A DNA stretch of 64,000 nt from a virus, in IMG/VR virus record IMGVR_UViG_3300025712_000005, positions 19,051 to 83,050 of that record; one strand, written 5' to 3'. Positions within the stretch are counted from its first letter, which is position 1. The number at the start of each line of letters is the position of its first letter. The position numbers were made by a program, and so were the translations under genes. Positions 53,128-61,287 of the stretch are shown here, piece by piece. The notes beneath the pieces are model-generated. The model worked only from the letters and a program-made list of their open reading frames with translations, was not told where the DNA came from and made no database searches.

Positions 53128-53604
53128 ATGAAGTATTTAAAAGCGTATTTAGTCGTAATAATGTTAATTCTGATGTGGGGGACTCGTATTTTTAATGAAT
53201 GGGTCTCTATGATTTTTTGTGTGCTATTCGACATCTCAGATGCGAAGGAAAGAAAAACTCGAGACCCAGAAACCGGTTGGCTTCACAGTAAATTATTAGC
53301 CCAAGACGTCAACGTCAACGTCGACTGTGGCGGGTATTTTAGAACAACTATTTCCAGTGAGCTGGGGGAGTTAAAGCTAAAAGGGAGTGAGGTTGGAACC
53401 ATCGTGGCTGAGATTGTAGATTGGTTTTTCTGGAAACTTTTCAAACAAGCGAACCACTGCGTAGGGGCTATCGAGCCAAATGACCGGCATATCTTTAATC
53501 CTTTGAGGATGGTTATTGGCTTTTTTATATTTATGTCCGTTAATATAGCTAAATATGCGGCAATTTATTTATTGCTTACGGAGATTTTATGGGTACTCAC
53601 ATAA
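53128..53604 (+). CDS. Membrane protein with two hydrophobic segments (158 aa)
   Basis: Residues 7-19 plus a second stretch (FNEWVSMIFCVLF) form an N-terminal membrane region, and residues 125-155 (PLRMVIGFFIFMSVNIAKYA...) a C-terminal one, with a soluble loop between. Phages often encode superinfection exclusion or host-envelope proteins near the tail genes; that role here is a guess. GGAG lies before the ATG. Confidence 0.6.
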   Translation: MKYLKAYLVVIMLILMWGTRIFNEWVSMIFCVLFDISDAKERKTRDPETGWLHSKLLAQDVNVNVDCGGYFRTTISSELGELKLKGSEVGTIVAEIVDWFFWKLFKQANHCVGAIEPNDRHIFNPLRMVIGFFIFMSVNIAKYAAIYLLLTEILWVLT

Positions 53605-53877: not shown

Positions 53878-54504
53878 ATGAACTTACAAGATTTCGCTAC
53901 ACTAGCAGATGCACAGGCTCACTTTGAAACTACTTACCGTAAAATTGGCGGTAATGAAGCGAGTCAGATTTTAGCCAAGACCAGTGCGTTAGATAGCATT
54001 GAAGCAAACACTGAGAATCTTCAACAAGTAGAAGTGACAGCGGGTGATCCTACAACAGTCGGTGCATTATGCCGTACTGTTATTCGTACTCTCAATGGCG
54101 GTCAGTTTGCTACTGACCCAAACACTGAGGACGGTGCAGTTAATCGCGGCTCAAGCTCAATACTAGTTGCCTTCGGTGTATTGACTCAAGCACAGATGGA
54201 TGGCTTCTATTCTAAAGCTGAAACGGTCACATTCCCATTCAAGAACAAGACTGAGTATGATTTTAAGGTCGCTAAGAACACGATAACCAAAGTGCCGTTG
54301 AGACAAACAGCGAACGGTGATTGCGCAGTGATGGAAGTATCAACAAGCTGTGACAACCACGCACCGAGAGTAACGATTGCTAACGGCACACGCATTGGAT
54401 ATTTCTACAATGTTGCCGCTGTTGGTTTCTACTCGTTCACTATTCCTAATGAGTATCGCGGTCAAGATTTGTTTGTGGATGATGCTTATGGTGTGGTTGC
54501 TTAA
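53878..54504 (+). CDS. Hypothetical virion-region protein (208 aa)
   Basis: The N-terminus is helical (MNLQDFATLADAQAHFETTY) and the rest beta-rich, with paired cysteines. A likely virion accessory protein encoded with the large repeat protein that follows two bases later. No family recognised. Confidence 0.6.
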   Translation: MNLQDFATLADAQAHFETTYRKIGGNEASQILAKTSALDSIEANTENLQQVEVTAGDPTTVGALCRTVIRTLNGGQFATDPNTEDGAVNRGSSSILVAFGVLTQAQMDGFYSKAETVTFPFKNKTEYDFKVAKNTITKVPLRQTANGDCAVMEVSTSCDNHAPRVTIANGTRIGYFYNVAAVGFYSFTIPNEYRGQDLFVDDAYGVVA

Positions 54505-54506
54505 CT

Positions 54507-57500
54507 GTGGCTTATTATTTACTGCGTCAACCTGACCAGCTAGTTACATTCCCATCACTAGCTTGGACTAGCAATGTTTGGGCAATAGAGTTTGATATAA
54601 GGATTGATGCAACATTTACAACTGGTGAATATTTAATTTCCAGCTCATCTGGAGATGTTAGCACTCAAATTACATTCCAGAATGGAGGTAACACCTTAAG
54701 GTTACGCGCTGTAGGTACAGCGTTAACAAACTATGATTTTAATGTAACCACTATAGATTTATCAATCAGGCATAAATTTAAAATAGAATCAGACGGCTCA
54801 GATTTATCACTAATTGTAGATGGGATTCCGCTTGAAACAAAAGCAGGCGATGCTATTCAGCCGCCTAACGCGCTTGTTGGGCTTTTTTCTACTTTTAGAG
54901 ATAGACCTGACGCTAATTTAGAACTTTATGGTATTAGTTTTTCTGGTGGGTTCGCCTCTCAGCGTAACTACAACCCATCAAGCTCAAGTGGTACAGGAAG
55001 TGTATTGCCTGATGCTCTTAATGCATCTAATGACGGAACACTTGTAAACTTCGATCCACTTACCGCTTGGGTAGAATACTTCACCGCAATAGACCCTACG
55101 TTTTGGCAAAAGAAAGTTGAGATAAAAACCAAGAACACAATACCGAGTATTGCCGATCCGTTTGTGTCACTCGTTACAGAGGCTAATTTACCTGCTGAAA
55201 TATGGGATATTGCTGAAAGTGGCGGAGGTGACATACGCGTTTGCCTAAACGAAGACGGTACAGGACGTTTGCCACTTGAAATAGTTAACTTTGATACCGT
55301 AAATCAAAAAGCGGTCATGTGGTCTAGGTCACCGAACATTAACCCCGCACAAGGGTTGTGGCTGTTTTACGGTAAAGCGGGTGAGACTCAGCCAGCGGTG
55401 ACAGATGTTAATGGTAGGAATGCAGTAAACGTTGATTATGCTTCCGCATGGCATCTTAATACTTTAAGTGACAGTGCTGGAAACGCTAATGACTTAACGG
55501 TAGTTGGTAGTCCAAGTCTTATAGAGGGTATTGTAGGTAAAAGCTACAAGTTTGCATCGAGTAGTGATTATCTTCACACTGATTATGTAGGTGTTGTTGC
55601 AGGTACTTTTAATATGTCGTTTTGGTATCAAAGAGACGGAAGTACTGACTTACCATTAAATGAAGCTGTTCTTGGTATAGCAAATAGCGGTAATGCTTTT
55701 GACAACTATGCAATAGTTTTAAATAGAGTAGGTGCGGACTTTAAAGTAGCTCTTTTTGCTAGAAATAGTAATACAGCAGTAATAGACGTTGTGTCGATTC
55801 CAAACTTACCTAGTAGCGCTTTAGTCTATATATCGGTCAATCAAGATATAAATGGATCAACGGTTACTGCGATACATAATGGAGTTACGTACTCTGGTAC
55901 AAGTGCTTTAAAACTACAAGGTTCTGGATTTAACAAACTCTCATTTAATAGGCTTATGGATAGTTCTCCTATTAGTGGGGGTAATGTAATAATAGATGAA
56001 CCTAGATTAACTAATAACAATATTAGCAGGCCTACAGCTTATATAGAAACGGAATACGCGAACCAATCAGACCCCGCGACATTCTGGGAAACAGGTGTGC
56101 CGCAGAGTACGGTAAGTGGCCCAGCCAACGTCGTAATCGACTTTGAGATTGCCACCAGTGAAGTAAAAACCACTTACACTTCGGTAGCTGCAGCCGTGGC
56201 TTTAGCGTTAAACGCTAAAATATCCGAAGTTAAGAACGAGGCACAAACATTATCTTTGTCTGGTGCGATTGACCTTGATCTAAGCGCCTCTGAAGTTATT
56301 ATTTCAGCGGCAGCGTTCAGTGTCGGCTTAAATTTCTCAATCAACACCACGCCAACAGAGCAAGTTACAGGTGTACAAGCCTTAACCCTTGCCAGTCAAA
56401 TAGCTACAGTTTCCTCTGAGTCTGAAATTATTTTCCAGACAACCTCGCTGACACTGGGTAATCAAATCGTTACCCAATCGAGCGAGGCCGAAGTATTAAT
56501 TGAATACCAAGGCATTGTATTAGACTCTGAGCTTGACCTTGCTATCTCAGCGGCTGAGGTGCTAATCGAAGCACAGGACGTGCAGGTTAGTTCTCGTCAG
56601 TTGTTTAACAGCGTCGACGTTGAAACGGTAATCGAGGTTCCTAGCTTCCAAATAACCTCAAACCAGTTCTTCAATAGCTCTACCGTACAAACCTTATTCG
56701 AAATCGGCCAAGTATCTTTGACTCAGGATGCGACATTCAGCACCTTACCTTCTGAAATAATAGTCGGCACCCAAGCAGCCACACTACAGAATATCATCCT
56801 TGTGGATGTTCCCTCTCTGCAAATACGGACAGAGACACAAAGCCTTGACCTTAGTCAAAGTCTATCGTTAACAACTTCACCATTAGAAATTTTAAATGAG
56901 GCTATTACCGGTAATTTAGATGGGGTTGATAAGTTTATTGCCAGCGTTGTTGAGCAGCTGAATGAAACGCAGACCGCAACCGCAAACAGTGACTTGCATT
57001 TCTTTGTTGTGAATGCTGAGCAGTTGACGGAGAGTGACGTATTGTCAGCATTGACTGTGCAAGAGTTAGGGGGCGTTGAGACTGAGCAGCACTGCAATTA
57101 CACTGTCTTAGATTTGTTAGACCAAGCCAACGTTATTGTTGTACGGGTCGAGCAGAATACGGACGTAGAAAGTTTAATCGTTGACCAAACAATCAATTTG
57201 GAAACTCCTCAGAGCGAAATCGAGGTTCAGGTTGAGCTTGTTGAGCTGAATCAATTAATTAATTTCGCTACAACGTCAACGGAGCAATTGACCGAATTAA
57301 CTGGGCTAACCTTACTAGGGGACAGTGAGCTTTCATCGAATCCTACGGAGACAAACACTGCAGTTAATTCCGTTTATGTTTCTAGCTTGCTAAACTTTAC
57401 GGGCGCAATGACCGAGCAACTATCGACCGTTGATATTATCAGCATCGTTATTAGAAACTTGAACATTGACCCTGAAAATATTATCCCGCTTGGTAGCAAC

Positions 57501-57554
57501 GTTAGATTTAAGCTTACCGAGACAACGGAACAATTTAGATTGACGATGAGGTAA
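54507..57554 (+). CDS. Large LamG/DUF2341 protein with twenty 22-residue repeats (1015 aa)
   Basis: A GTG start at 54507 follows the upstream stop by two bases. Residues about 1-160 are LamG-like (QPDQLVTFPSLAWTSNVWAI onward), about 195-295 carry a DUF2341-like pattern (GGGDIRVCLNEDGTGRLPLE, GLWLFYGKAGETQ), and about 315-510 are a second LamG-like domain. Residues 550-989 are twenty contiguous 22-residue repeats without a gap, with Glu at position 3 in 18 of 20 and hydrophobic residues alternating at positions 9-20. A 26-residue cap follows. It is probably a surface-exposed fibre or receptor-binding protein with a beta-solenoid shaft. Confidence 0.8.
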   Translation: MAYYLLRQPDQLVTFPSLAWTSNVWAIEFDIRIDATFTTGEYLISSSSGDVSTQITFQNGGNTLRLRAVGTALTNYDFNVTTIDLSIRHKFKIESDGSDLSLIVDGIPLETKAGDAIQPPNALVGLFSTFRDRPDANLELYGISFSGGFASQRNYNPSSSSGTGSVLPDALNASNDGTLVNFDPLTAWVEYFTAIDPTFWQKKVEIKTKNTIPSIADPFVSLVTEANLPAEIWDIAESGGGDIRVCLNEDGTGRLPLEIVNFDTVNQKAVMWSRSPNINPAQGLWLFYGKAGETQPAVTDVNGRNAVNVDYASAWHLNTLSDSAGNANDLTVVGSPSLIEGIVGKSYKFASSSDYLHTDYVGVVAGTFNMSFWYQRDGSTDLPLNEAVLGIANSGNAFDNYAIVLNRVGADFKVALFARNSNTAVIDVVSIPNLPSSALVYISVNQDINGSTVTAIHNGVTYSGTSALKLQGSGFNKLSFNRLMDSSPISGGNVIIDEPRLTNNNISRPTAYIETEYANQSDPATFWETGVPQSTVSGPANVVIDFEIATSEVKTTYTSVAAAVALALNAKISEVKNEAQTLSLSGAIDLDLSASEVIISAAAFSVGLNFSINTTPTEQVTGVQALTLASQIATVSSESEIIFQTTSLTLGNQIVTQSSEAEVLIEYQGIVLDSELDLAISAAEVLIEAQDVQVSSRQLFNSVDVETVIEVPSFQITSNQFFNSSTVQTLFEIGQVSLTQDATFSTLPSEIIVGTQAATLQNIILVDVPSLQIRTETQSLDLSQSLSLTTSPLEILNEAITGNLDGVDKFIASVVEQLNETQTATANSDLHFFVVNAEQLTESDVLSALTVQELGGVETEQHCNYTVLDLLDQANVIVVRVEQNTDVESLIVDQTINLETPQSEIEVQVELVELNQLINFATTSTEQLTELTGLTLLGDSELSSNPTETNTAVNSVYVSSLLNFTGAMTEQLSTVDIISIVIRNLNIDPENIIPLGSNVRFKLTETTEQFRLTMR
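56154..57473 (+). repeat. Twenty 66-bp coding repeats (22 residues each)
   Basis: Each unit begins x-(S/T/A/V)-E-(V/I/Q) and continues with alternating hydrophobic residues. Glu at position 3 is replaced by Gln only in units 9 and 11. The DNA itself is not repetitive, so selection is on the protein. The total is 440 residues with no insertion or deletion. Confidence 0.85.
57538..57548 (+). promoter_or_regulatory. Displaced initiation box before the 57562 gene
   Basis: GATTGACGATG occurs at the end of the large repeat gene; its ATG is codon 1014 of that gene and is followed by AGG TAA. The sequence after it, GAGGTAAGTA, is the ribosome binding site of the next gene, as in the J leader. Confidence 0.4.
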
Positions 57555-57561
57555 GTAAACT

Positions 57562-57963
57562 ATGGCTAATTTCAGCTCATACCAGTACAAACAAGCTCCT
57601 AAGGCTGTCCTTGAGGCCTGTAACGAAATTGGGATCATAAAGAACCCTTTAAAAAGCGACAGTGATGCTCAGCTGCTTGCTAAAGTAATCTGCACAACGG
57701 CAATGACCGCCGGTGACGTAGGTTTCACTGCCGAAGGTGATGGCTCAGCCCGTGTTGTAATTAATGCGAAGACAGGCATTGACCCAACAGGTTCAGCGTT
57801 AGACAGCGACGATATTTGTTTGTATGTTCGTAACTCCTCTGCAACCCGCTTTGAATTTATTCAAGACATCAACGACAAAACCATTGCTAACGATGACGGC
57901 GACACGCTGAACATTCCGCAGTCGGTTCATTATATTCGAGAGCCTTCGGCGATTGTTGTCTAA
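57562..57963 (+). CDS. Hypothetical virion-region protein (133 aa)
   Basis: It begins MANFSSYQYKQAPKAVLEAC, with a helical start and a beta-rich remainder. GAGGTAAGTAAACT precedes the ATG. It overlaps the next start by one base (TAATG). Likely a tail or fibre accessory. Confidence 0.6.
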   Translation: MANFSSYQYKQAPKAVLEACNEIGIIKNPLKSDSDAQLLAKVICTTAMTAGDVGFTAEGDGSARVVINAKTGIDPTGSALDSDDICLYVRNSSATRFEFIQDINDKTIANDDGDTLNIPQSVHYIREPSAIVV

Positions 57964-58307
57964 TGATTAAGCGCATCCCAGTTTATCAGGGGGCACTTAG
58001 TGTCTCCTCTTTCAAAGTCGAATCCTTCCCAGCGAACAGTCTTAGTTCGTTGAAAGAGTTCGACTTGCTTAAACATGGGATAGTTCGTGTGGTTGCGGAA
58101 GCAGGTAATAAGGTTCTCGATTCTGATATTTCCCCAGACTCTATTTGGTTTGACGTGGATACTGTGTTTATAAAATTTGGTGACCTTATGTTGCCAAAAG
58201 GTGGGCAGCATGTCCTAACCTTGCTTGTTTATAAATTGAATGAAGACGCTCCTATCCTTGTCTCCTCAGCCTACACCTACACTCAAATAGTGCTTGTCAC
58301 TATTTAA
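57963..58307 (+). CDS. Hypothetical protein (114 aa)
   Basis: A small beta-sandwich-like protein (MIKRIPVYQGALSVSSFKVE onward), coupled by a one-base overlap to the preceding gene. No family recognised. Confidence 0.55.
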   Translation: MIKRIPVYQGALSVSSFKVESFPANSLSSLKEFDLLKHGIVRVVAEAGNKVLDSDISPDSIWFDVDTVFIKFGDLMLPKGGQHVLTLLVYKLNEDAPILVSSAYTYTQIVLVTI

Positions 58308-60231: not shown

Positions 60232-61287
60232 TTATTTATTGCTCCTGTGTGTGAAATCTGAGAGGTTTATCGGGGCTAAGTCACCATCGAGAGCCGGTAC
60301 GACCGATAATTTCCTATCATATGACTGTGTTTGCCTAAGATTGGTGTGCCCTGCAGCGAATCTTTTATCCTCAAGACTACCTTTCATGTCAGAAACACCC
60401 TTCGATTTTAAATCATGGAAGTGTATATTCATTTCTGATGGTGTTTTGAATCCACATTCATCCAGTGAATTAAAACGAGCTATCTCAAATCGCTTTTGAA
60501 GCATTCGGATACTCACTTTCTTACCATTCACTTGATGAATGAGATAAATAGAATGCATATTATTTTCTAATGGGAGTTTATGCGCTCTTTTTATTGCATC
60601 TCTCAGTCGGTCATTCCATTCTTTTATTTGGCCCACTCCGGTTTTTGACTGTTGGATAAATAAACCTTCTTCAAGCAAGTTTGATTTTCTTAATTCAACT
60701 ACATCATTAATTCTGGCCATGCAGACATACGCAATTTCCATGGCCACTTTTAATATCGGGTCGGCGTTCTTATAAAGGATGGAGTATTCTTCGTGGGTGA
60801 TATAACGAGTTCTCGCCTTCTCTGGCAGCTTCTTTATCTGTAGGGCAGGGTTTGTCTTGAGGTAACCGTTCTCTTTCCCGTAGCGGCATACTGAGCCAAT
60901 GAAGGAGACGTGTCGATTACCTTGGAGGGGGGAGCTTCTTTTCTTTGCCAGTAGATTACGCCACTTAACAATATGTGGCGTCTCTATGCTGTCAGGATTC
61001 ATGTTGCCAAAGGCCAGTGTGACTTCTTTGGCATACAGAATATAATCTTTTTGGGTTTTGTTAGCGAGGCGACTGAACTCCTCGCTATCAAGGTATTCAA
61101 GAATGACTTTCTTGAAGTTGGTATCGCCATCTAATTCACTCAGAACGCGATCATAACTTAGCAGCACGTCTCTTCGTGAGTCACTGGTCGAACATAATCT
61201 GTAACGCTTTCCATTTCTCAATGGTCTGTAATAATAAAAATTCCCTTTTGGGGATACCTTGGGCGGAAGCCAGTCAGGTCGTTTCAT
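60232..61287 (-). CDS. int: Tyrosine-recombinase integrase (351 aa)
   Basis: Catalytic residues in order: R192 (CMARINDVV), K215 (QQSKTG), H291 (FHDLK), H314 (AGHTN) and Y323 (QTQSYDRK). The usual HxxR second arginine is lysine here (HDLK294SKG), a form seen in a known subset of phage integrases. An N-terminal DNA-binding part (1-50) and SAM-like core-binding domain (55-145) precede. The start at 61287 has GGAAATTAACTATG, a degraded initiation box. It would recombine attP in the tRNA-Ser core with the host gene. Confidence 0.9.
   Translation of the reverse strand: MKRPDWLPPKVSPKGNFYYYRPLRNGKRYRLCSTSDSRRDVLLSYDRVLSELDGDTNFKKVILEYLDSEEFSRLANKTQKDYILYAKEVTLAFGNMNPDSIETPHIVKWRNLLAKKRSSPLQGNRHVSFIGSVCRYGKENGYLKTNPALQIKKLPEKARTRYITHEEYSILYKNADPILKVAMEIAYVCMARINDVVELRKSNLLEEGLFIQQSKTGVGQIKEWNDRLRDAIKRAHKLPLENNMHSIYLIHQVNGKKVSIRMLQKRFEIARFNSLDECGFKTPSEMNIHFHDLKSKGVSDMKGSLEDKRFAAGHTNLRQTQSYDRKLSVVPALDGDLAPINLSDFTHRSNK

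Follow-up and report, generated by a model that had tools for sequence, protein, structure and literature searches.

The gene at positions 54507-57554 (+) of the 64,000-nucleotide stretch of DNA analysed here (the window, bases 19051-83050 of an 83,050-base IMG/VR virus record) encodes a 1015-residue protein with a GTG start, in which residues 550-989 (56154..57473, +) form 20 gap-free tandem units of 22 residues with the consensus PSEQLTEVQSLSLSSQINLNTS. The same kind of repeat occurs in the same gene cassette in phages with different virions, and thus the array probably forms the acidic stalk of a host-recognition part that can be exchanged. We regard it as likely that the protein is a tail-associated fibre or adhesin belonging to a host-recognition cassette exchanged between phages, in which the repeats form a rigid acidic beta-rod.

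The phage is a marine siphovirus of 83 kb, the MCP relatives of which include Pseudoalteromonas phage KB12-38 (57%), Xylophilus Lumi, Achromobacter JWF, and Caulobacter Seuss. An integrase-family recombinase (PF00589) encoded at 60232-61287 (-), adjoining the tail/lysis region, suggests that it is temperate; a tRNA search of the 64-kb window gave none. The description of the 1015-residue protein as a probable fibre in the initial annotation is supported by its context, as its gene lies between those of a 2865-residue tail-tip J protein (Phage-tail_3) upstream and a GH108 endolysin downstream, in a cassette that other phages also carry; the label itself comes from gene position and protein architecture.

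Several modules precede the array. The N-terminal domain (residues 1-193; 54507..55085, +) is homologous to those of the corresponding cassette proteins of Alteromonas phages R9Y3 and R9Y2 (BLASTP 8e-5 with R9Y3) and shares with the former the end motif 'NDGTLxNF....WV'. By its sequence pattern only, it may be LamG- or lectin-like, while no LamG profile from Pfam or NCBIfam matches the 1015-residue protein. Residues 200-310 (55104..55436, +) match Pfam PF10102 with an E-value of 3e-4 and 21.6 bits, under the gathering cut-off of 23.4, and for this reason we refer to this domain only as DUF2341-like; it is common to the window protein and protein WBK39766 of Desulfofustis phage LS06-2018-MD01 (tblastn, 28% identity, 3e-5). 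The global alignment with the latter protein (23% over 351 aa) points to a second LamG-like region at residues ~311-545 (55437..56141, +). The array is followed by a short C-terminal tail (57474..57551, +) with the end NVRFKLTETTEQFRLTMR.

Periodicity, sequence columns and age of the array

The division of residues 550-989 into 20 units without a single insertion or deletion, as initially proposed, is exact. The mean BLOSUM62 self-match of the array is +0.47 at lag 22, +0.39 at lag 44, and +0.16 at lag 66, every other lag from 5 to 69 gives -0.31 or less, and the highest value given by 500 shuffles at any lag was -0.17, far below that at lag 22. A profile built from the 20 units finds exactly 20 in-phase units, which is partly circular, as these are the units of its training, and nothing above threshold outside the array from residue 441 on.

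The conserved columns previously noticed by eye are also borne out. Position 3 is Glu in 18 units and Gln in two, while the largest column count of Glu in 20000 placements of the 39 Glu residues was 9. Positions 11 and 13 are V, I, L, F, or M in 17 of the 20 units each (19 and 20 units, respectively, when Ala is included). Additionally, results of our analysis indicate that positions 17 (12/20) and 19 (17/20) are hydrophobic and that position 7 is Glu in half of the units (10/20). The array as a whole is acidic, with 59 D+E residues vs. 8 K+R.

The earlier view that the DNA is not repetitive, and that the array is old and selected, agrees with the divergence of the units, the mean identity of which is 19% at the protein level and 34% at the DNA level. 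Since the third codon positions of the units agree at 27%, which is the random level, and the 18 Glu codons of position 3 comprise nine GAA and nine GAG, the array appears to be old and to have been maintained by selection at the protein level.

The repeat-profile search suggested in the initial annotation revealed no significant match of residues 550-989 to a named repeat family in Pfam, PHROGs, or NCBIfam, and no sequence relative of the array was found among PDB sequences (solved chains, including solved solenoids). No repeat relatives were obtained by tblastn with the whole protein, the array, or the array consensus against 50,697 phage records, nor by scans of the IMG/VR and GTDB genomes, in single-protein or two-row form, for which several genes of the window were used. 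A scan with the MCP gave relatives, the contigs of which gave no match to the fibre, and no 22-residue fibre of the window kind was found in the genomes closest by this protein (KB12-38, Lumi, JWF, Seuss, Acinetobacter phages, and a Methylobacterium plasmid). A search of papers likewise gave no description of this repeat. The statement that no described repeat family has this pattern is thus valid for Pfam, PHROGs, NCBIfam, and PDB sequences, but relatives of the array do occur in two IMG/VR sequences (L068 and L143) and in the cultured Alteromonas phage P24. While phage fibres built from repeats and mobile cassettes for recognition are kinds already known, the libraries searched contain no name for the repeat, and its spread across virion types seems to be undescribed.

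The cassette and its relatives in other phages

The fibre gene is preceded by a 208-aa gene (53878..54504, +), the product of which is homologous to P24 AZU97341 (BLASTP 6e-13), and followed by a 133-aa gene (57562..57963, +) with homologues in L068 (BLASTP 6e-33, 40% identity), L143, and P24 (AZU97339, 9e-25). The P24 homologue, of 127 aa, may be a chaperone or cap. Same-position homologues of the 208-aa gene are indicated by alignment in R9Y2/R9Y3, L143, and L068, the alignment being weak in the case of the latter two. Farther upstream, a gene of a small, probable membrane protein of 158 aa (53128..53604, +) is homologous to the gene in front of the R9Y2 cassette (BLASTP 5e-16). The gene order of L068 is that of the window: a 218-aa gene, the fibre gene, the gene of the 132-aa homologue of the 133-aa protein, and a 114-aa gene. 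The last of these matches the window gene at 57963..58307 (+; 114 aa) in position and length, and no sequence similarity was detected between the two.

L143 was identified in a search with the L068 downstream gene pair, and P24 by tblastn; both were reached via a neighbouring gene and not via the repeat, and both contain a 22-residue array in the fibre slot. The neighbouring tape-measure and late-control-type genes lead us to read the L068 fragment and the L143 contig as P2-like. L068 itself came from a scan of IMG/VR in which Glu codons had to recur every 66 bases through eight units in a row and which yielded at least 120 stretches; among the matches listed, most are unrelated repeats, many acidic or coiled-coil ones having been discarded, and several, with L068 as one of them, belong to phage proteins that have beta-like units of 22 residues.

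The units of L143, 'TGEQVEESVALTLAASFTVTSV', agree with the window consensus in E3, Q4, E7, L11, L13, and the hydrophobic positions 5, 17, and 19, and the L143 array aligns with that of the window over 220 columns without a gap. The 22-residue units of L068, 'SAEQVEQGEVNSIIANIDVHSV', align with a gap of exactly one unit. With a profile based on the window units only, the units of P24 score 13.6 vs. a 95% shuffle maximum of 9.4, which five of them exceed, and those of L143 and L068 score 10.6 and 10.1 vs. 9.8 and 9.4, respectively. An HMM of the window units detects P24 at 1.9e-6 and L143 at 1.8e-7, the best shuffle giving 0.12, while L068 by itself is not significant (HMM E-value 0.089; whole-fibre BLASTP 0.12). 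Over the 51 units of the four phages, with two spacings of 24 residues placed by eye in the phase of P24, position 3 is Glu in 46 and Gln in five, and nothing else.

The proteins in this slot of P24 (AZU97340, a hypothetical protein), L068, and L143 resemble the window protein in cassette order, N-terminal domain, units, and a similar short, strand-rich C-terminal tail, and their arrays are acidic too (D+E/K+R values of 44/2, 27/3, and 24/7 among the three). They differ in lacking the DUF2341-like and second LamG-like modules and in having ~9-14 units instead of 20 (13 and a degenerate last part in L143, nine in L068, and ~9 in P24); in addition, the P24 array contains two spacings of 24. We define here a P24/L068/L143 type of marine phage cassette fibre by 22-residue units with E/Q at position 3 and hydrophobic residues at 11 and 13, a homologue of the 133-aa gene behind, and one of the 208-aa gene in front. 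The window protein has the first two of these features, whereas the third is clear in the comparison with P24 and is seen by weak alignment only in that with L068 and L143. Same-type units of L143 are 83-94% identical in DNA while the window array is saturated, which indicates that the design was re-amplified recently in the L143 lineage and is ancient here.

In P24, the cassette of the repeat protein lies directly after two genes that, from their order and size, we take to encode the tail fibre and its chaperone. These two proteins belong to a recognition module common to morphologically distinct Alteromonas phages, and the passages of the P24 paper that treat them do not discuss the repeat protein (PMC10579305).

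The P24 cassette fibre has matches in the cultured Alteromonas phages R9Y2 and R9Y3, in which a homologous 199-aa gene and the homologue of the window 158-aa gene lie upstream of a slot protein (UNA02094/UNA02149). The latter is similar to the window protein in its slot, its homologous N-terminal domain (MAYYL...), and the presence of a tandem array. In contrast, its repeat, 'DAPALTGSVSIDGLSVTGAVSSDV', comprises 24 residues and has no Glu ladder, and the downstream gene is not clearly related to that of the window (19% identity). The PHROGs match of the R9Y2 repeat to 'tail fiber' is weak (5.7e-6). The occupation of the slot by a 24-residue repeat implies that the cassette keeps a plan of N-terminal domain, tandem array, and C-terminal tail, while the kind and number of repeats change.

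The slot proteins of R9Y2 (L144:5581-7074) and R9Y3 (L145:5713-7344) differ in their N-terminal domains and are nearly identical in their 24-residue arrays and C-termini, a difference that, judged from the sequences, is an allele swap between close phages. A published host-range panel might bear on this swap (PMC9430817).

Fold and role of the array

AlphaFold2 models were obtained with the array's own units as input rows and, in a second case, with these units and those of L143 and L068. In both, almost all units have strands at positions ~3-13 and 17-21, and no helix is present, at low confidence (pLDDT 69 and 57; pTM 0.51 and 0.46), which is in line with the beta repeat initially proposed. 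A coiled coil was rejected, as the lag analysis contains no heptad or hendecad signal and the models are all-beta. The ~15-residue repeat of the adenovirus-type triple beta-spiral shaft was likewise not seen, the period being 22 with nothing at 15. The top PDB matches in Foldseek are beta-solenoids (bactofilin, curli CsgA, LpxD, and GlmU); none is significant (best E-value 0.065), and thus they hint at a fold class without establishing it. CsgA has ~22-23 residues per repeat, and the stacked two-strand turns of CsgA and bactofilin resemble the model of the window array at low confidence, although there is no sequence relation and their biology is different.

Each unit, with a long strand at 3-13 and a short one at 17-21, would probably form one turn of a two-sided beta-solenoid, with the hydrophobic residues of positions 11, 13, 17, and 19 stacked inside the rod and the Glu/Gln residues of position 3 forming a stacked ladder at the turn that leads into the long strand. 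Such a rod, rigid, elongated, and strongly acidic, may determine how far the C-terminal tail stands from the globular, lectin-like modules at the N-terminus, one end presumably facing the cell, and its length could vary from phage to phage as whole units are gained or lost. The cassette, composed of the 208-aa gene, the fibre gene, and the 133-aa gene, would then be exchanged between phages of different virion types.

The strands may instead pair between three chains, as in a beta-prism or a triple beta-spiral-like shaft, so that the array would be a trimeric beta-fibre and not a monomeric solenoid. Most phage fibre shafts are trimers, the relevant part of the P24 paper presents the central fibres of P24, V22, and A5 as modelled trimeric beta-helical structures (PMC10579305), the monomer models of the window array are low in confidence, and several viral Foldseek matches (TMq ~0.57-0.61) are phage proteins, one of them annotated as tail-fibre like. 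Against this, the nearest, though not significant, PDB matches are monomeric solenoids and curli, and the clean alternation of two strands suits a 22-residue solenoid turn; we see about one chance in three for the trimer. A somewhat stronger case, still short of an even one, can be made for the array being, by descent, a divergent member of a broader superfamily, as yet without a name, of phage tail repeats with units of 20-24 residues; 'GVEATTAVGSVTVTADANVSVS' in L045 would be an example. The GV(E)ATGxVGTVTV tail repeats of L045, L025, and L022 have 22-residue, beta-rich units in apparently the same E3/V11/V13/V19 register, with other residues elsewhere; of the 22 possible phases, the same one gives the best fit for all three when the E column is omitted, and the HMM E-value for L045 is 1.1e-11 with this column and 1.3e-4 with it masked. 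However, loci of the L045 type had been chosen for Glu every 22 residues, and convergence could account for the likeness. The E-masked profile also matches apparent reverse-strand frames and other repeats, one shuffle giving 0.014, and was rejected as proof of the superfamily because it is too unspecific.

That the Glu ladder is a functional site, with carboxylates stacked along the rod to bind either Ca2+/Mg2+ or a receptor of basic character, seems unlikely to us. The constancy of E or Q in 51 of 51 units indicates that the ladder matters, and the arrays are very acidic; on the other hand, no known metal motif is present, the R9Y2 repeats occupy the same slot without such a ladder, and the five Gln units suit a hydrogen-bond ladder at least as well. 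As Gln can stand for Glu at position 3, a ladder of hydrogen-bonded side chains is more probable than a metal site that is obligatory, and in sea water the ladder might be held by hydrogen bonds or bridged by cations. Least probable of all is a decoration protein of the capsid surface or the tail tube, an assignment suggested by the DUF2341 relative of the Desulfofustis phage, which sits among head genes and is annotated as 'capsid protein'; the window gene lies in a tail/lysis region after tail-tip or fibre genes, here and in the homologous cassettes.

The reading of the protein as a fibre or adhesin with a repeat-built stalk can be extended to a bolder, rather speculative proposal: an unnamed family of 22-residue acidic beta-solenoids would serve as the stalk of a tail-fibre cassette that can be exchanged and that functions in three or more virion types unrelated to one another, its obligatory Glu/Gln ladder, of a new kind and based on cation bridges or hydrogen bonds, making the rod stiff in sea water, and its length being tuned by whole units. 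The analysis provides a defined repeat family without a model and a cassette boundary, which annotation pipelines have left as 'hypothetical protein', and adds evidence that parts for host recognition move between marine phages of different morphology, in which the array would be a spacer that can be adjusted. For the study of fibre function, a cultured system is available in Alteromonas macleodii ATCC 27126 together with either P24 or the R9Y phages.

Other repeat proteins of phages and related elements

Tandem, beta-like units of exactly 22 residues with differing consensus sequences are encoded at further IMG/VR loci (L045, L025, L022/L087/L100, L047, L116, L028, L033, L030, L071, and L121), and for those of them that were scanned, neither Pfam nor PHROGs gave a convincing model of the repeat. 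Possibly, these proteins represent a large unnamed class of phage stalks.

Protein WBK39766 (L006:5980-8262) resembles the window protein in having a DUF2341-like domain followed by C-terminal tandem repeats and differs from it in repeat periods (14/44, 'TSYDLRLNV') and in its head-gene neighbourhood. Its annotation as a capsid protein is doubtful, as the domain and the 14/44-residue repeats suggest a surface or fibre protein.

Caulobacter phage Seuss gp039 (L005:23173-23979), of 268 aa, is composed of 21-residue repeats, 'LAGMTDNIVAQVSIAASLSKT', and is encoded between the tail fibre J and lysis genes; a relation to the window array would be hypothetical. The 85.7-kb plasmid pMaq22A_3p of Methylobacterium aquaticum (L017) carries a siphophage gene set related to that of the window phage (MCP 38%) and looks like a phage-plasmid. 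Its tail-tip frame of 4087 residues contains repeats of 17, 20, and 40 residues.
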